Of a stretch of 64,000 nucleotides of DNA, positions 25,325 to 38,267 are shown piece by piece. This DNA is from Pelagicoccus enzymogenes (lineage in GTDB: Bacteria > Verrucomicrobiota > Verrucomicrobiia > Opitutales > Opitutaceae). The notes beneath the pieces are model-generated. The model was not told where the DNA came from, made no database searches, and saw nothing but the letters and a program-made list of their open reading frames with translations. Position 1 is the stretch's first letter. Each line of letters opens with the position of its first letter. The translations under genes and the position numbers were made by a program. Location of the stretch: the NCBI RefSeq assembly GCF_014803405.1, contig NZ_JACYFG010000036.1:248001-312000 (forward strand). Direction: 5' to 3'.

Positions 25325-25876
25325 ATGTCACAACACGCAACGCTCGAATTCCTCAACGCACGCCGCGATTGGGTGCTTGCTGCCCCCAAGGACAACGCTC
25401 CAATCCTCACCCTATGCCTTCGTCCCGAACTCGGCGAGCGAAGCTTCGTCTCTTCTCTGCAGCTAGACCCCAAGCAAGGGGTCGTAGGCGATCGATGGAT
25501 ACGCAAAACCTGGATGTACACGATCGATGGAAAACCTGACCCAAGGATCCAAGTTTGCTTGCTCGGGTCCCGCGTTCTCCAGCTCATCCGAAGAGATCCA
25601 GACGGCATGACCTACCCCGGCGACAATATCATCGCCGACATGGATTTCTCCGAATCCAACCTCCCGGTCGGACAGCGCCTGCAAATCGGCAGCGCCATCA
25701 TCGAGGTGAGCGACGTGTTCAACACCGCTTGCTCGAAATGGAACGAACGTCACGGAAGCGACTCCATAAAGTGGATCAATCTCCCGGAAAACAAAGAGCA
25801 CCGCTTTCGCGGAATCCTCTGTCGTGTTGTCCAGGCCGGAGAGGTCACCCTTACCGATAAAATCCAAAAAGCCTAA
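25325..25876 (+). CDS. MOSC-domain protein
   Basis: A 183-residue single MOSC domain. GVVGDRWIRKTW, YPGDNIIADMDFSESNLPVG, QRLQIGSAIIEVSDVFNTAC and the conserved Cys in NTACSKWNERHG are typical. MOSC domains bind a molybdenum-cofactor sulfide or sulfur carrier through this cysteine, as in Moco sulfurase and mARC/YiiM proteins; free-standing members are mostly uncharacterised. It is the third gene of the GGCT/TPR/MOSC group and has no N-terminal YiiM extension. Its 3' end overlaps the convergent Sel1 gene by 4 bp. Confidence 0.82.
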   Translation: MSQHATLEFLNARRDWVLAAPKDNAPILTLCLRPELGERSFVSSLQLDPKQGVVGDRWIRKTWMYTIDGKPDPRIQVCLLGSRVLQLIRRDPDGMTYPGDNIIADMDFSESNLPVGQRLQIGSAIIEVSDVFNTACSKWNERHGSDSIKWINLPENKEHRFRGILCRVVQAGEVTLTDKIQKA

Positions 25877-28629
25877 GCGGCTCCGACCGGAGCCCAAGGG
25901 TCGAATTCCGGCTCCTCCGGGTCCGGGTCTACGGCTCTGCGATCCTGCTCCTTGTAGCGAACCCCATACTTGCGCAACAACAAGCGAGCCTCGCCGGAAC
26001 CATCGTCCACCAATCGCTTCAGCCATTCGACAATCACATCCTTCTCAATCGCCGCAATCGGACTATCCAAATTGAGACGAGCGATCGTCAGCCGCGAAAA
26101 GGTGTCGCCCGCACGGGCTGCTTTGAGAAACCAAGCGATACCTGCCCCCCTAGCGCTTCCCTTCTCGCTCAACAGCTTGCCAAGCTCTCGCTGGGAATCC
26201 AAGTCGCCTAGAAGCGCTGAATTCTCCAGCCACTTCTCGCTCTGGCTTTCGCTAACAGACAATCCGTACCCTTTCCCGTAATACTGGCTCAACAAACGAG
26301 CTGACTGGGCGGCATAGGTCCTGAGTCCTTCGTAGGCGCTGTCCCGGTTCTGTTCATAAATTTTCCTGAGATAGGAAAGCGCCTTCTTCGCATCACGTCC
26401 CTTTGACTCTTCTTCTAGGCAAAGGCGGCAAAAACGCAGTTTGGCTGCCATCGAATCCTTTGCAATAAGTCGCTCCAGAATACGACGCGCTTCCTTTCTA
26501 TCCGTTCCCGTCCAATTCAATTCGGAATACAAATCCGCTTGCAGCAACATCGCCGCATAGTCCCCAGGATCAAAGGACTCTACCACCTCAATCGGTTCGT
26601 ATTCGCCAGGATAATACAGCGATCCCCCAGCGACTGGAGCAGGATGGCTCATGTAGAGATCAAGCCAATGGGCAGCTTTACCTTTGTTTTTAGGATGGCC
26701 GCGCCCGAGATAGTAATTGAATGCGGTTTCCCTCATCGCTGTTTTGTCTCCCAGCTCGGCCGCTTTCTCCATCCAAAAGGCCACCTCGACTTCATCGCTG
26801 TCGACAAGGAGGTTTGCCCGGTAGATGTCAGCAAGCTGGTAACATGCCGCCAAGTTTCCCAATTCTGCCGCCTTCGCGATCCAACGAATCCCTTCCTTCG
26901 TGCTCATGCTCACCCCTACTCCCTGCAGGTAGCAATTTCCAAGATTTTGGGCTGCTTCAGGATCGTCCGCTCCAGCCGCCTTGAGGTAAAGCTCAGCTGC
27001 CTTGTATTCGTTTTTTGGAACCAGAATCCCGGTGAAGTGAAACGCCGCGAGTCGATTGTAAGCGTTTTGGTATCCCAAGGCAGCGGCACGCTCGAAATGT
27101 TCGTAAGCCTTGTGGACGTTTGCCTCTACGCCCATCCCACTTAAGTAACACTGTCCCAAGGTAAACACGGCTTCCGGCAAACCCTGGTAGGCAGCGTTTC
27201 GCACGAGCTCGAAACCGCCGACGGGATCGAAGGGCACCCCTTCGCCGCTCATGCGCATGATGCCCACCAAATGCTGGGCCCGCTTAAATCCTTGGTTCGA
27301 CGATTTCACGTAAAGCTCAAGCACCTTCGATAAGTCGGTTTCGACTTCTACCAACCATCCCACGCTTTTCCTTAGCCCCAGACTGTAGAGGGCCCTACCA
27401 TCGCTTCTCTCAGCCGCCTCAAGGCAAAGGTCCCTAGCTTCCTCCGGACTCAAAGGGGCGAGCTTCGGCGATTCGTCCAAGGCGAGTTCTGCGACGTACA
27501 GCCCTTGATCCGCAGCCCGCTGCAAAAGGGTGGATACGGAGGCCCCCTCCGGAGCTTTCGCCTCTCCGGCGCCGATCATCGCCGCGAGGTTGTAGAGCGA
27601 CAGGACCCAGTCCTCTTCGGCTCCGCGCTCAAAATGCGAGGCGGCGATCCCCAGATCCCTTTCAACCCCTATGCCCCGATGGTATAGCACTCCGAGCCTC
27701 AGCCTCGCCTCTTCGTTCCCGTTTTCCGCCGCCATCGACAGGAGCGTCGCTGCAAACTCCGGATCGTAGTCTTCGCTCTGCTCGTCCAACACCTCTAGGG
27801 CAAAAGCCAGCTGGGTCGCCGTCACCATCTCGGAGACGACATCGCTGAATTGCCGGCTCGTTTCCAACAAGTTTTGCCGGTCCCCCGCGTCTTCCGAACC
27901 GGCGAAATAGGACTCCATCGATCGATTTACCTCGTCGATGGACTGCAGATCGTAGAGCTCGAAAAACTCCTTGGAGCGGGTCACGTCCTTTTCGACGTCT
28001 TCCCCCTTCGCGTAAGCGATCGCCAGCGTCATGGTGGCGTCCTTGTCCCCCGTCCGCGAGGCATCCAACATAAGTTCCAAAGAGCGATTCTTGTCCTCCG
28101 CAACTCCCCATCCGTTCAAGTAAAGAACTCCCAGCAGATAGCTGGCTCGCGACTTGCTCCGACGAAAGAGTCCAAAGTCTTCCGGCGAAACTTGCGATTG
28201 GGCCTCGGGCGAAACCACAGATTGCAGCAAATCCACGATTTGTCCGTAGGAGGCCCCCTCCTCCTCGTCTATTTCTCCGAAAAGAAACTCTGCCCATTGC
28301 AAGGCCGCGATCGGGTTCCCCCCTTCCGCAGCTCGCTGAAGCCATCTTTTGCCTTGTTCCAAATTTTGGGCGAGTCCGTAGCCTTCCAGATAGAGCTGGG
28401 CCAAAAAGTATTGGGAACGAGCGTGTCCCTCGACCGCGAGTCGCTTCAGCTGCTTCACTGCAGCATCTAGGTCCTCCGCTTCTCCCGTGGACAAGAGCTC
28501 CAAGGCCTCTCGGTGGCGAAACTCGAAATCCGCAATGTCGACTTCCGTTTCGACCTGTCCAGTGGCGAACGACACCAGCGAACCAAGAAAGGCTAATTTG
28601 CAAAAAAAGACGCGGACAGAATTCAGCAT
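25873..28629 (-). CDS. exported Sel1-repeat protein
   Basis: A 918-residue protein with a signal peptide (MLNSVRVFFCKLAFLGSLVS, likely cleaved near ATG-QVETE) and many Sel1-like repeats of about 36 residues. Clear copies include ARSQYFLAQLYLEGYGLAQN, ASYLLGVLYLNGWGVAEDKN, ARLRLGVLYHRGIGVERDLG, AQHLVGIMRMSGEGVPFDPV, AVFTLGQCYLSGMGVEANVH and AAQNLGNCYLQGVGVSMSTK. Such solenoids act as protein-binding scaffolds. The C-terminus is acidic and Pro-rich (DPDPEEPEFDPWAP). There is no kinase or enzyme domain. It is monocistronic, convergent with the MOSC gene and divergent from the fur-like gene. Confidence 0.85.
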   Translation of the reverse strand: MLNSVRVFFCKLAFLGSLVSFATGQVETEVDIADFEFRHREALELLSTGEAEDLDAAVKQLKRLAVEGHARSQYFLAQLYLEGYGLAQNLEQGKRWLQRAAEGGNPIAALQWAEFLFGEIDEEEGASYGQIVDLLQSVVSPEAQSQVSPEDFGLFRRSKSRASYLLGVLYLNGWGVAEDKNRSLELMLDASRTGDKDATMTLAIAYAKGEDVEKDVTRSKEFFELYDLQSIDEVNRSMESYFAGSEDAGDRQNLLETSRQFSDVVSEMVTATQLAFALEVLDEQSEDYDPEFAATLLSMAAENGNEEARLRLGVLYHRGIGVERDLGIAASHFERGAEEDWVLSLYNLAAMIGAGEAKAPEGASVSTLLQRAADQGLYVAELALDESPKLAPLSPEEARDLCLEAAERSDGRALYSLGLRKSVGWLVEVETDLSKVLELYVKSSNQGFKRAQHLVGIMRMSGEGVPFDPVGGFELVRNAAYQGLPEAVFTLGQCYLSGMGVEANVHKAYEHFERAAALGYQNAYNRLAAFHFTGILVPKNEYKAAELYLKAAGADDPEAAQNLGNCYLQGVGVSMSTKEGIRWIAKAAELGNLAACYQLADIYRANLLVDSDEVEVAFWMEKAAELGDKTAMRETAFNYYLGRGHPKNKGKAAHWLDLYMSHPAPVAGGSLYYPGEYEPIEVVESFDPGDYAAMLLQADLYSELNWTGTDRKEARRILERLIAKDSMAAKLRFCRLCLEEESKGRDAKKALSYLRKIYEQNRDSAYEGLRTYAAQSARLLSQYYGKGYGLSVSESQSEKWLENSALLGDLDSQRELGKLLSEKGSARGAGIAWFLKAARAGDTFSRLTIARLNLDSPIAAIEKDVIVEWLKRLVDDGSGEARLLLRKYGVRYKEQDRRAVDPDPEEPEFDPWAPVGAA

Positions 28630-28881: not shown

Positions 28882-28954
28882 TTGGAACGATTCCAAATTT
28901 CACTTGATATTTAGAATTATTCCATTTCGATACTGCGACTTAGAGTTATTCTAA
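28882..28954. promoter_or_regulatory. three tandem 7-1-7 operators before the fur-like gene
   Basis: Three inverted repeats of the pattern TTRGAAT-N-ATTCYAA lie in line: TTGGAACGATTCCAA (28882-28896), TTAGAATTATTCCAT (28911-28925) and TTAGAGTTATTCTAA (28940-28954). Their centres are 28889, 28918 and 28947, exactly 29 bp apart. The 7-1-7 form is that of Fur/PerR/Zur boxes. TTGATA (28904-28909) and GATACT (28929-28934) could be -35 and -10 elements with a long 19-bp spacer, in which case the boxes would overlap the promoter. They most likely bind the product of the gene that follows, controlling it and the suf genes. Confidence 0.78.
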
Positions 28955-28979: not shown

Positions 28980-29399
28980 ATGAACAACGAAGTCAGATCA
29001 GAGATCCTGCACCAGAAGCTGGCCGCTTCCGGTCTTCGTTCGACTCGCCAACGCGAGATCGTCTACGATGCGATCCTGTCCAAGCGCGACCACCCCACTG
29101 CCGACGAAATTTTCGCCCGGGCCAAGCAAGAGATGCCAACCATCTCGCTCGCAACCGTTTACAACTGCCTCGACACCCTCGTGCAGTGCGACCTCGTCAA
29201 GCAGGTCCACCTCGAGCGCGAGTCGACCCGCTACTGCCCCAACCTCACCGAGCACGCCCACTTCCACGACAACGAGTCCGGCACCATCTACGACGTGCAA
29301 CTCGACCCGGCCACCATTTCCCAGCTCACCCACCTCCTGCCCGAAGGCTTCGACGTGAGCTCCATCGACATCACCTTCCGCGGAAAAGCCGCCAGATAA
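28980..29399 (+). CDS. Fur-superfamily regulator of the suf genes, atypical metal site
   Basis: A 139-residue Fur/PerR/Zur-family repressor. The DNA-binding half is typical ([46 protein letters not shown]). Aligned on the HxH pair with B. subtilis PerR (H37, D85, H91, H93, D104) the equivalents are His38, Cys86, His92, His94 and Asp105, all with a constant offset of one. So the acidic ligand is replaced by Cys, as in Zur proteins. The structural zinc cysteines are lost: Asp97 and Ser100 stand where the first CxxC should be, and there is no second CxxC at the C-terminus. It lies 40 bp before sufC and after three operators, so it probably represses itself and suf. The metal or signal sensed is unknown. 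Confidence 0.88.
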
Positions 29400-29439: not shown

Positions 29440-30207
<768 letters not shown>

Positions 30208-30228: not shown

Positions 30229-31638
30229 ATGGTTACACCAAATTCAGAGATCGAAGTCGATCGCGAGAAAGGAAATTTCCGCTTCGCCGAAAGTCACAAG
30301 TATGACGCCGGTATCGGCCTTTCCGAAAAAGTTATCGACTACATTTGCGACGTCAAAGAGGAGGACCAATGGATCCGCGACTTCCGCAAGCGCGCCCTCA
30401 AGGTCTTCGAGTCCAAGCCCATGCCCACCAACTGGGCAACCAAGGACCTCGAGAACATCGACTTTGACAAGATCCGCTACTACCTAGCTGGAGCCAACAG
30501 AGCCTCACGCTCTTGGGATGACGTTCCCGACGACGTAAAGCAAACCTTCGAACGCCTCGGCATTCCGGAAAACGAACGCAAGTTCCTCGCCGGCGTGGAA
30601 GCCCAGTTCGACTCGGAAGCCGCGTATTCAAATATCAAGGAGAGCGTCGGCAAGCAGGGCGTCATCTTCATGGGATCCACCGAAGGCCTCATGAAGCACC
30701 CTGAAATCTTCAAGAAGTGGTTCGGCAAGGTCATCCCGACCGGCGACAACAAGTTCTCCGCCCTCAACAGCGCCGTCTTCTCCGGCGGTTCCTTCATCTA
30801 CGTTCCGCCAGGCGTAAAGGTCAGCCATCCGCTACAAGCCTACTTCCGCATCAACGCGGAAAACTTCGGCCAGTTCGAGCGCACGCTCATCATCGCCGAC
30901 GAAGGCTCCGAAGTCACCTACATGGAAGGCTGTACCGCGCCTAAGTTTGACACCGCGACCCTGCACTCCGCAGTCGTAGAGCTCGTTGCCATGCCGGGCG
31001 CCAAGATCGAGTACGTAACCGTACAGAACTGGTCCTCCAACGTCTTCAACCTCGTGACCAAGCGCGCCATCGCCCACGAGGGCGCTACCGTCAAGTGGAT
31101 CGACTGCAACATCGGCAGCCGCCTCACTATGAAGTACCCAGGCGTCGTCCTGAAGGGCAAGAAGGCTCGCGGGGAAGTACTCTCCATCGCCCTCGCCAAC
31201 GACGGACAGCATCAGGATACCGGAGCCAAGATGATCCACGCGGCGGACGAAACCACCAGCAACATCATCTCCAAGTCCATCAGCGTCGGCCAAGGTCGCT
31301 CAACCTACCGTGGCCAAGTTCACATGCCCAAGAACCTCAAGGGCTGCAAGAACAACACCGAGTGCGACGCCCTGCTCATCAACGACAACTCCCGCACCGA
31401 CACCTACCCGGCCATCACCGTGCGCGGCAACAAAAACGCCGTACAGCACGAAGCCTCCGTTTCGAAGGTTTCCGCTGAGCAGATTTTCTACATGCAGCAG
31501 CGCGGCCTCAGCGAAGGCGAAGCCATGAGCCTGAGCGTCAACGGATTCGTCAATGACCTGACGCGCCAATTCCCCATGGAATACAGCGTCGAGCTCAAGC
31601 GCCTCATCGAACTGGAAATGGAAGGCTCCGTCGGATAG
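30229..31638 (+). CDS. sufB: Fe-S cluster scaffold protein SufB
   Basis: A 469-residue SufB, the subunit on which Fe-S clusters are built. The central beta-helix contains [53 protein letters not shown] and [18 protein letters not shown]; the Cys in NTECD is the probable persulfide-acceptor site corresponding to E. coli Cys405. The C-terminal helical domain ([20 protein letters not shown]) binds SufC. It begins 21 bp after sufC. Length and motifs are those of a complete SufB. Confidence 0.97.
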
Positions 31639-31707
31639 TCCGCATCTTCAATTTTTGAATCTCCAATTTTCAAATACCTAGTGAGTTCACTTACAACAGA
31701 CACACCC

Positions 31708-33036
31708 ATGAGCGAAAGCAGCGACGCGATCAATCCGATCAAAGAGGCATTCAATCGCCATATCGAAGATCTGGATACAGCTCCCGCATGGTGGAAAAGC
31801 AGCAAGACCGAAGCCTTCGAAACCTTCGAAAGCATCGCCCTTCCCACGCGCCGCGACGAGCCTTGGCGCTTCGCCACCGTGAAAGGACTGGAGCTGCAGG
31901 ACGTCAAGTTCGCCGCCTTGCCCAGCATCAGCGACGCCGCTGGTTTGGTGGCCCACTCTAACTTCATCGAAAACTTCTCCGGACGCTTCGTCTTCGGCGA
32001 CGACCAAACGCTGCAGGCCGACCGCATCTCGCCCGAGCTCGCAGAAAAGGGCGTCATCTGGGCCCCCTTCCGCGAGGCGGTCGCTAAGCACGCCGACATC
32101 GTGAAGGACTACTTCATGAAGCAGGAGGCCGATCTTGGATCCGAGAAGTTCGCCGCGCTGCATCAGGCCTTCATGGAAAACGGTGCCCTGCTCTACGTGC
32201 CCAAGGGCGTCGAAATCGAGGATGCCTTCGTCGTCTACAACTGGAGCATCAACGCCGGTTCCGCTATCTTCCCGCACACCCTCGTCATCACCGAGGATTT
32301 CGCGAAGGTGAAGTTGGTCGAAGCCAACCTTTCCGCCACCGAGGACGCAGCCGCCTTCTCTTGCGGAGTGAACCATATCTTCGCTGGCGTGGGCTCCACC
32401 GTCGACTACACGCTGCTACAAAACTTCAACGAGCAGACACTCGGCTTCCAGCTCAACTCCAACGTCGCCGGCAAGGACTCCAACGTTAAGACGATCAGCG
32501 TCAACGTCGGCTGCAAGCGCTACCGCTCCGAAACCCACGGCCAGATCAAAGGCCCGGGTTCCAAAGTGGAAATGCTCTCCCTCGCCGTCGCCGACAACGA
32601 GCAGGAAATCGACCAGCGCACCTTGCAGACCCACTCCGCCCCGCACGCGGTTTCGGACCTGCTTTTCAAGAATGCCCTCATCGACGACGCTCGCACCATA
32701 TTCTCCGGATTGATCAAGGTCGATCCCGGCGCCCAGCAAACCGACGCTTACCAAACCAACCGCAACCTGCTGCTCAGCGGCACCGCGGAAGCGAACTCCC
32801 TGCCTGGCCTGGAAATCGACGCCAACGACGTGAAGTGTAGCCACGGAGCAACTACGTCCCAAATCGAAGACGAGGAAATCTTCTACATGCTCGCTCGCGG
32901 CATCCCGCGCGAGAAAGCTCAGGAGTTAATCGTTTACGGTTTCTTCGAGGAGATCCTCGAGCGCATTTCCTGCGACACTGTCGCGGAAAACGCCCGCCAG
33001 ATCATCCAAAACAAGTTCAAGCGCCGGTCCAAGTAG
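31708..33036 (+). CDS. sufD: Fe-S cluster assembly protein SufD
   Basis: About 442 residues from the ATG beginning MSESSDAINPIKEAFNRHIE; a GTG at 31681 in the same frame would add nine residues. It is a SufB paralogue: LPTRRDEPWRFATVK in the N-terminal region, a beta-helix core with LLYVPKGVEIEDAFVVYNWS, KGPGSKVEMLSLAVADNEQE and THSAPHAVSDLLFKNALIDD, then KCSHGATTSQIEDEEIFYML, which holds the conserved His, and REKAQELIVYGFFEEI at the SufC-binding end. It forms the SufBC2D complex with the two genes upstream. Confidence 0.95.
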   Translation: MSESSDAINPIKEAFNRHIEDLDTAPAWWKSSKTEAFETFESIALPTRRDEPWRFATVKGLELQDVKFAALPSISDAAGLVAHSNFIENFSGRFVFGDDQTLQADRISPELAEKGVIWAPFREAVAKHADIVKDYFMKQEADLGSEKFAALHQAFMENGALLYVPKGVEIEDAFVVYNWSINAGSAIFPHTLVITEDFAKVKLVEANLSATEDAAAFSCGVNHIFAGVGSTVDYTLLQNFNEQTLGFQLNSNVAGKDSNVKTISVNVGCKRYRSETHGQIKGPGSKVEMLSLAVADNEQEIDQRTLQTHSAPHAVSDLLFKNALIDDARTIFSGLIKVDPGAQQTDAYQTNRNLLLSGTAEANSLPGLEIDANDVKCSHGATTSQIEDEEIFYMLARGIPREKAQELIVYGFFEEILERISCDTVAENARQIIQNKFKRRSK

Positions 33037-33085: not shown

Positions 33086-33664
33086 ATGCACACAGAAGAG
33101 CAGCAGCAACGCAGCCTCACTCGCGAGGTTGAAGCGGTACAAATTCCAAGCGGCGAGCCTATCCAGCTCCCCGCTCTCTCGAAGGTACACATCACCCAGC
33201 AGCTAGGCGGCAGCTACACCGTCATGACCGACTACGGGCTCGCCCGCATCGACGGTCGCGACGCTGACGCTCTCGGATCCGACATCGCTGCAGAACAGGC
33301 CGCCGCTCAGGAAGCTGCCGCCCAAAAGAAGGCGGAACCCTCCGGCGAAACGCCAGACGAGGAAGCCATATGGCAGCAGCTCCGCAATGTCTACGATCCG
33401 GAAATTCCGGTAAACATCGTAGATCTCGGCCTCGTCTACTCCATGGTCGTCGAGGAAACCGAAAACAGCGCCAACAAGGTCGTCGTGCAGATGACCCTTA
33501 CGGCGCCCGGTTGCGGTATGGGTCCAGCTATCGCCGAGGACGCCAAGAGCAAGATCCTGCTCGTTCCCGGAGCCGACGAAGCCGAGGTCAACCTCGTCTG
33601 GGAACCGGCTTGGGACCAAAGCATGATCAGCGAAGAAGGCCGCATGATCCTCGGCCTCGTCTAG
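33086..33664 (+). CDS. sufT: Fe-S assembly protein SufT (MIP18/DUF59 domain)
   Basis: A 192-residue SufT-type protein. The C-terminal half is the MIP18/PaaD-like domain: WQQLRNVYDPEIPVNIVDLG, LVYSMVVEE and the conserved Cys in LTAPGCGMGPAIAEDAK. The N-terminal 95 residues (LTREVEAVQIPSGEPIQLPA onwards) form the extra domain that distinguishes SufT from PaaD, with an Ala/Gln-rich linker between. SufT homologues assist Fe-S maturation under high demand. It ends the suf set; no sufS, sufE or sufU gene is present in this window. Confidence 0.9.
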   Translation: MHTEEQQQRSLTREVEAVQIPSGEPIQLPALSKVHITQQLGGSYTVMTDYGLARIDGRDADALGSDIAAEQAAAQEAAAQKKAEPSGETPDEEAIWQQLRNVYDPEIPVNIVDLGLVYSMVVEETENSANKVVVQMTLTAPGCGMGPAIAEDAKSKILLVPGADEAEVNLVWEPAWDQSMISEEGRMILGLV

Positions 33665-36912: not shown

Positions 36913-37290
36913 TTAAACGCTGAAGCTCTCGCCGCAAGAGCAGCTGGAGGTCGCGTTCGGATTGCTGAACTTGAATCCTCCGGAAATCAGGGCATTGGAA
37001 TAGTCGAGATGCGTCCCCTTCAAGTACAAGGCGCTCTTGCTATCCACGATGACTTGAGCCTGGCCGAAATCGACGAGGATATCGCCTTTCTTGGCGTTTT
37101 CCACAAATCGCATCTTGTAGGACAGCCCATTGCAGCCGCCTCCTGAAATTCCCACTCGCAGAAAAGGCTTATCAGGCTCTTTCTCCGCAAGCTTGGCGAC
37201 TTTCGCGACGGCGGCGTCAGTGAGCTTGATCAGGCGATCATCCCCTTGGCGAACCCCCTCGGGCAACTGAATTGCGTGTTGTTCTGGCAC
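36913..37290 (-). CDS. A-type Fe-S carrier (IscA/ErpA/SufA family)
   Basis: An Fe-S carrier with the three conserved cysteines: Cys in GISGGGCNGLSYKMRF and the C-terminal pair in SSCSCGESF. RLIKLTDAAVAKVAKLAEKE and VIVDSKSALYLKGTHLDYSN are family segments. The start is uncertain: I use the GTG at 37290 (MPEQHAIQLPEG), about 125 residues; a TTG at 37371 would give 152 residues and overlap pdxA by 16 bp. The N-terminus remains longer than in E. coli ErpA. It delivers clusters to target proteins and so complements the Suf set about 3 kb away. Confidence 0.88.
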   Translation of the reverse strand: MPEQHAIQLPEGVRQGDDRLIKLTDAAVAKVAKLAEKEPDKPFLRVGISGGGCNGLSYKMRFVENAKKGDILVDFGQAQVIVDSKSALYLKGTHLDYSNALISGGFKFSNPNATSSCSCGESFSV

Positions 37291-37355
37291 AGCGGAAATA
37301 TCGATGCGTCTCCGAGCAAAATCAAGTCCAGCCTCAATCTCGGCCGACCAGCTCC

Positions 37356-38267
37356 CTATTTCATGCGACAAGCCAGCTGGATCGCATGATGGGCGCTGCC
37401 CTTGCTGGCGATCCCCTTTCCCGCGATTTCGAAGCCCGTCCCATGGTCCGGACTCACCCGCAAGTGCTTGAGGCCAAGCGTCACGTTAACGCCACTGTCG
37501 AAGTCCACCGCCTTAAATGGGGCCAAGCCCTGATCGTGGTACAAGGCCACAACGACGTCCGCCTGTCCCTTCATCGCGCGCCCAAATGCCGTATCGCCCG
37601 GCACGCAGTCCTCGATCGTCGCCTCCAATTCGCCGCGGAGCTCCCGCAGCCAAGGGTTCAGACGGTCGATTTCCTCGGTGCCCAACAAGCCCCCCTCGCC
37701 CGCATGCGGATTGAGTCCGCAAACCAGAATTCGGGGACGTCCGTAGCCCAGACGCTGCCCGAGATGAGCCGCCGACCGAACGCTGTGCTTAAATGTACGC
37801 TCGTCCAAGGCCGCAGGCACTGCCCCCAGCGGAATGTGCCAGGTCGCCAAGCAGAGCTTCAAGTGTTCGCCCACGAAGGCCATGGTCGGCTCTCCACCCC
37901 AACGGTCCGCAAAAAACTCAGTTTGCCCCGGAAACGGATAGCCCACCTCCACGCACAAGGCCTTGGAGATCGGGCCCGTTACCACCGCATCGCATTCTCC
38001 ATCCAAGCAGCTCTTGGCAGCTGCCTCCATCGCAGCGATCGCGAGTCGAGCCCCATCGGGCGTTGGCTTGCCAGGAGCGAAGTCGATATCGCTCAAGGCT
38101 ACGCCACGGACGCGCCCCTCTCCCTTCGACTCCAATTTCTCGCACCAAGAGCGACTTCCAAAAACCACGAACTCCGCCTCCCCATAGCTCTCTTCCAGCA
38201 AACACGCTTCGATCAGTTCAGGCCCCAGTCCAGATGGGTCTCCGCAGGTGATGGCTATTCGTCTCAT
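37356..38267 (-). CDS. pdxA: 4-hydroxythreonine-4-phosphate dehydrogenase
   Basis: A 303-residue NAD-dependent enzyme of the DXP-dependent pyridoxal phosphate pathway. It begins MRRIAITCGDPSGLGPELIE and contains DAVVTGPISKALCVEVGYPF, PGQTEFFAD, CGLNPHAGEGGLLGTEE, YHDQGLAPFKAVDFDSGVNV and SPDHGTGFEIAGKG; the His and Asp residues in these segments form the metal site. It is slightly shorter than E. coli PdxA. It follows lpxA by 6 bp and precedes the A-type carrier gene, an arrangement with no obvious metabolic link. Confidence 0.95.
   Translation of the reverse strand: MRRIAITCGDPSGLGPELIEACLLEESYGEAEFVVFGSRSWCEKLESKGEGRVRGVALSDIDFAPGKPTPDGARLAIAAMEAAAKSCLDGECDAVVTGPISKALCVEVGYPFPGQTEFFADRWGGEPTMAFVGEHLKLCLATWHIPLGAVPAALDERTFKHSVRSAAHLGQRLGYGRPRILVCGLNPHAGEGGLLGTEEIDRLNPWLRELRGELEATIEDCVPGDTAFGRAMKGQADVVVALYHDQGLAPFKAVDFDSGVNVTLGLKHLRVSPDHGTGFEIAGKGIASKGSAHHAIQLACRMK

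Follow-up and report, generated by a model that had tools for sequence, protein, structure and literature searches.

Among described systems, those closest to the one presented here are the Fur-family regulators Irr and PerR, both of which have been connected with suf genes. Irr of R. sphaeroides occupies, within the isc-suf operon, a region that includes TTAGAAATATTCTAGA (PMC6956336), and in S. meliloti Irr control was abolished by mutating TTCTAA, a stretch of the mbfA ICE (PMC7540006), while in S. mutans PerR represses suf by acting on sufCDSUB (PMC11631912). The arrangement in which a regulator heads an Fe-S assembly operon, with presumed autorepression, is shared with SufR of cyanobacteria and actinobacteria and with IscR and RisR (Rrf2), but these belong to unrelated protein families and use unrelated operators. 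Zur resembles the present regulator in having Cys as the hinge ligand, but differs in clade, box and target genes. A literature search, with many subscription papers outside its scope, yielded no account of this regulator or of suf/Fe-S assembly control in Verrucomicrobia.

The window (the whole stretch of DNA that was analysed, 64 kb) belongs to a genome of 6.2 Mb in 60 contigs and contains three 7-1-7 boxes ahead of a Fur-family gene and suf genes (Table 1). A sequence-only reading of the window had placed the box centres at 28889, 28918 and 28947, a step of 29 bp, and the sequences are present exactly as it gave them; its description of the boxes as near-identical was too strong, boxes 2 and 3 agreeing at 12/15 positions and boxes 1 and 2 at 11/15. 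We consider the three boxes to be, with a probability of about 0.83, the putative operator through which the adjacent Fur-family regulator controls its own suf operon, because box and spacing are conserved, the box co-occurs and is co-lost with the regulator, it is located almost exclusively at this promoter and a TTG element is fixed between boxes 1 and 2. As in SufR systems, the regulator gene heads the suf operon, and its promoter carries conserved boxes that resemble operators. We rate Fur-family control of an Fe-S operon as a known kind of regulation and the distinct clade, the operator array and the ligand site as new. The system would add a further regulator type beside IscR, RisR and SufR at Fe-S assembly operons.

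Table 1 Features of the suf locus and their positions in the window
Feature	Position	Strand	Remarks
Box 1, TTGGAACGATTCCAA, 7-1-7 palindrome	28882..28896	none	Upstream of TTG element; position kept in family
TTGATA, candidate -35	28904..28909	+	Between boxes 1 and 2; -35 identity inferred
Box 2, TTAGAATTATTCCAT, 7-1-7	28911..28925	none	Falls in would-be -35/-10 spacer
Box 3, TTAGAGTTATTCTAA, 7-1-7	28940..28954	none	
Fur-family regulator, 139 aa, operon head	28980..29399	+	Pfam FUR 1.2e-22; NCBIfam IrrA/Irr/PerR below cut-off
sufC	29440..30207	+	TIGR01978, 356 bits
sufB	30229..31638	+	TIGR01980, 624 bits
sufD	31681..33036	+	TIGR01981, 260 bits
sufT-like gene	33086..33664	+	TIGR03406, 212.5 bits, over cut-off

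In the window, no sufS, sufE or sufU was seen adjoining the suf cluster. About 3 kb past the cluster lies a gene for an A-type carrier-like protein (36913-37371, minus strand). Divergent from the suf operon is a gene for a 918-aa Sel1-repeat protein (25873-28629, minus strand), which starts about 250 bp from box 1.

Regulator, ligand site and operator compared with Irr and PerR

The regulator is a member of the Fur superfamily (FUR domain PF01475, 80.8 bits vs a cut-off of 23.1), and its AlphaFold model (mean pLDDT 92.5, pTM 0.83) has its best Foldseek matches in the PDB among Fur-, PerR- and Mur-type regulators, with a probability of 1.00 for PerR/Fur structures. A 100% identical protein is encoded by Pelagicoccus sp. 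SDUM812005, and the nearest named proteins are from Pelagicoccus (Opitutales, Verrucomicrobiota). The best NCBIfam models were IrrA and Irr, followed by PerR, all far below their cut-offs (Irr and IrrA equivalogs at 78.8 and 79.1 bits vs 170 and 150). In trees, the suf-linked proteins group together (95/92), separately from the Irr clade (100/99); forcing Irr together with the CxxC-less suf members was rejected (p-AU 0.02), and a single group of Irr and the whole suf clade was not (p-AU 0.17). On these trees the regulator is placed in a clade of its own near PerR and Irr, and membership in Irr was rejected on the scores below cut-off, the position outside the Irr clade and the p-AU of 0.02. 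The window protein lacks CxxC motifs, i.e. the structural Zn(Cys)4 site. Both motifs are kept in the suf-linked regulators of several class members (L195, L199, L212, L215, L217, L219 and L220), so the structural zinc site was lost within the suf clade, independently of Irr.

In an alignment with B. subtilis PerR, residues H38, C86, H92, H94 and D105 correspond to H37, D85, H91, H93 and D104, the five PerR ligands. Each of the five was present in 104/104 family orthologues, compared with 103 for C63, 95 for C70 and 98 for P87, and H92-A93-H94 constitutes an HxH motif. Across the class, C86 is found in at least 90% of the alignment, a few lineages having Glu or Asp instead, and P87 is not conserved at this level. 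The residue at the C86 position is Glu in L169, L178, L194 and L196 and Asp in L201, acidic as in PerR, and such natural variants provide material for probing the role of the Cys. Regarding C86 as unprecedented was dropped, as Zur proteins carry Cys there. The regulator thus shares with PerR the fold, the aligned regulatory-site positions and Fur-family control of suf, but differs in having Cys86 for Asp85, in its half-site, in the missing structural Zn site of the window protein and in the placement of its gene in the suf operon.

The family box consensus is TTRGAAYNATTCYAA (90 promoters, 176 boxes), with G at half-site position 4 in 174/176 boxes. Consensi for PerR, Fur and Zur scored 11.6, 2.8 and -4.8 bits against an optimum of 24.9 on the family matrix, and both results bear out the initial view that the half-site is unlike those of Fur, PerR and Zur boxes. 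That view had missed the TTAGAA/TTCTAA core shared with the rhizobial and alphaproteobacterial Irr (ICE) box, although the comparison is with single published sites: TTRGAAYNATTCYAA agrees with the Irr site TTAGAAATATTCTAGA at 12/14 positions. As the Irr site (11.9 bits) and the PerR consensus are about equally far from the matrix optimum, the resemblance to Irr is one of invariant G/C positions and not of overall score. An Irr-like operator used by a separate protein clade would lend itself to studies of DNA choice in the Fur family. Several class-level lineages carry the box variant TTAGAATNATTCTTG.

For the signal, we lean towards a holo-repressor that responds to the status of iron or of iron-sulfur, because this suits what a suf operon requires and because the ligand set is fully kept. 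Holo-repressors of this kind have precedents in E. coli Fur, reported with a [2Fe-2S] cluster (PMC11001641), and in S. mutans PerR acting on suf (PMC11631912). With a good supply of iron or Fe-S, the ligand would be held at H38/C86/H92/H94/D105 and suf repressed, and shortage or oxidation of iron would make the regulator release the DNA. Of all the steps in this explanation, we are least sure of the signal and of the direction of control, and activation in place of repression is possible. A more tentative suggestion is that Verrucomicrobiia possess a Fur-family repressor dedicated to suf, with an operator code of its own, that reads Fe-S-cluster or heme status directly; with the invariant C86 in its regulatory site (C63 and mostly C70 also being kept), this repressor might be the Fur-fold counterpart of IscR and SufR. 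The locus poses the question of what a Fur-family site with Cys for Asp senses.

The main alternative, Irr-type control, would have the apo-protein bind ICE-like boxes during iron starvation and heme (at CP and HxH) remove it, so that suf would rise with iron. The regulator resembles Irr in its shared operator core (PMC6956336, PMC7540006), in its top NCBIfam matches, in lacking structural Zn cysteines while having HxH, and in a C-terminal end of the form PEGF...ID(I/V)xxR, and the R. sphaeroides Irr site likewise sits in an isc-suf operon. Furthermore, B. japonicum Irr has a Cys-Pro heme motif and a His cluster (PMC4700492), and here C86-P87, well kept in the family, stands just before H92-A93-H94. 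We nevertheless regard this alternative as unlikely, since the Irr models reach 79 bits against cut-offs of 150-170, the suf clade lies apart from Irr with its CxxC-less members refusing to group there, and the suf-clade members with both CxxC motifs imply that loss of the zinc site was convergent with Irr. In addition, the CP motif is placed elsewhere than in Irr, P87 is not class-wide and Cys replaces Asp at position 86. Irr is also a global regulator, whereas the suf regulator, encoded first in the suf operon, apparently acts at one promoter.

A regulator that binds the boxes but senses zinc is improbable. S. coelicolor Zur uses Cys79, His85 and His87, a ligand spacing identical to that of C86, H92 and H94, and Zur proteins likewise have Cys at the hinge position, but the tree groups the regulator with the PerR/Irr part and not with the cell's own Zur-like protein, and the controlled genes are suf, with no zinc genes found under the box.

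Conservation and co-occurrence of box and regulator

A regulator orthologue was found in 135/150 family genomes. The sequence-only reading had proposed that the boxes are conserved operators of the fur/suf unit and had named lack of conservation in related genomes as the outcome that would speak against this; related genomes in fact keep both boxes and spacing. All 90 family promoters (90/90) carry at least one box and 73/90 at least two (59 with two, 14 with three and 17 with one), and the distance between neighbouring boxes is 29 bp in 81/87 cases, the remainder being 28 (3), 30 (2) and 23 bp (1). Many one-box promoters have a degenerate second box at the expected place, and among family promoters a third box was confined to four genera, that of the window and three of its relatives.

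At order level, 74/103 genomes have a relative of the regulator, as do parts of the class, and sufC directly follows on the same strand in 55/57 order- and class-level loci; the other 2/57 had no sufC match in the stretch examined. Linkage to suf was absent at three distant phylum-level matches (L222-L224), and no relative of the regulator was found on viral contigs. Since order-level promoters mostly have one good box, the paired 29-bp array is, as far as these promoters indicate, a feature of this family built upon a wider single-box system. In genus g102 (family f29, class level), the regulator precedes sufC, with a box that matches poorly or is not recognised. That site, regulator and suf genes stay together across much of the class suggests a dedicated switch for iron-sulfur-cluster building, and an operon-heading Fur-family regulator of class-wide occurrence with a defined operator is a directly testable system.

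The exact box was present in 119/150 family genomes, compared with four matches of a reversed control pattern. In all eight genomes of the genus (8/8) it occurs at the suf promoter, with a second one elsewhere in 1/8. Among the family matches listed, seven off-regulator places were examined, of which one is the suf promoter of genome G021 and most others are inside reading frames; the five one-mismatch matches examined elsewhere in the window genome are all in reading frames. We therefore rejected a regulon-wide iron box, as exact boxes are nearly confined to the suf promoter and the off-site matches examined lie mostly inside genes, in searches based on exact or one-mismatch patterns, which could miss weak targets elsewhere. 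Two different genera (L117 and L118) have an exact box inside murD, probably a coding coincidence.

Genomes in which the regulator is missing were informative. In G045, G076, G165 and G172, sufC is present without the regulator and without a box (best 5.5 bits). In G021, which has lost the regulator, box 1 is intact (22.3 bits) and box 2 degraded (13.0 bits), 29 bp apart and directly upstream of sufC. The G021 locus (L115, G021:C51; box at 2019-2033, sufC at 1150-1905 on the minus strand) has a transposase gene nearby. The absence of boxes from suf operons without the regulator and the decaying pair in G021 tie the box to the adjacent regulator, and the box is best read as belonging with that protein and not with another Fur-family protein of the cell. 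The window genome does encode two further Fur-family proteins (at G000 C59 and C50), and Fur-family proteins can share 7-1-7 sites, so that one of these could bind the boxes with the neighbouring gene as a passenger; this has little probability given that no boxes occur where the suf-linked gene is missing, that exact boxes are almost absent elsewhere, unlike in a global Fur regulon, and that the half-site is unlike known Fur, PerR and Zur boxes.

A symmetric scoring matrix from the family's 176 boxes (3/176 from this window, negligible circularity) gave boxes 1, 2 and 3 scores of 22.1, 19.3 and 19.3 bits, the top three in the window, with the next at 12.2 bits. Dinucleotide shuffles of the window had a mean of 0.045 sites of at least 15 bits per 64 kb, and 29-bp pairs occurred in 0/200 of them. 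Although loosely palindromic sequence is frequent (the 349-bp spacer is expected to hold about 3.7 7-1-7 palindromes with at least 5 pairs), the shuffle statistics and the retention of sequence-specific boxes, far above chance, across dozens of genera at fixed spacing rule out the idea that the repeats are chance or a purely structural trait of an AT-rich spacer.

Promoter geometry and predicted mode of repression

When promoters with 29-bp spacing were aligned on box 1, TTG occupied columns 23-25 in 68/68, with TT after each box and often GTT after box 2. In a larger set of 84 paired promoters, 75/84 combined 29-bp spacing with a TTG starting 7 bp before box 2. The sequence-only reading had placed -35 and -10 candidates between the boxes; the invariant TTG between boxes 1 and 2 agrees with the former, but no canonical pair accompanies it. 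A canonical sigma-70 promoter was rejected, as a scan for the promoter pair or a -10 element was empty, the hexamer 17 bp past the TTG element in the window (TCGATA) is a poor -10 and GATACT (28929-28934) would require a 19-bp spacer.

The constant spacing had also been taken to imply cooperative binding. At 10.5 bp per turn, however, 29 bp corresponds to 2.76 turns, which would rotate adjacent dimers by about 85 degrees relative to each other, and boxes 1 and 3, separated by 58 bp (5.5 turns), would lie on opposite faces. Outside the family, a usable box was present in 48 promoters, where it occupies the box-2 position in 15, the box-1 position in 13 and neither in 20; nearly all singles at the box-2 position have TTG 7 bp upstream, and those at the box-1 position have TTG about 22 bp downstream. 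Because single boxes keep the box-1 or box-2 offset from TTG, the data suggest that the 29-bp spacing is set by promoter geometry, a better fit than same-face cooperativity, and cooperative stacking on one face was set aside on the helical phasing and these offsets.

If the invariant TTG is the -35 element, the boxes around it have the layout of a repressor, and repression is the predicted mode of control. In the proposed mechanism, each box would bind one dimer, box 1 just upstream of the -35 element, box 2 obstructing RNA polymerase between -35 and -10 and box 3 further downstream, close to the start site, and the regulator would repress the operon that it heads (regulator-sufCBD-sufT) and, apparently, hardly any other gene. 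Among the relatives of the window's genus that have three boxes (L018, L019, L022, L023 and L025), a second TTGATAT-like element precedes box 3, and the 29-bp repeat unit there would thus take in the TTG element.
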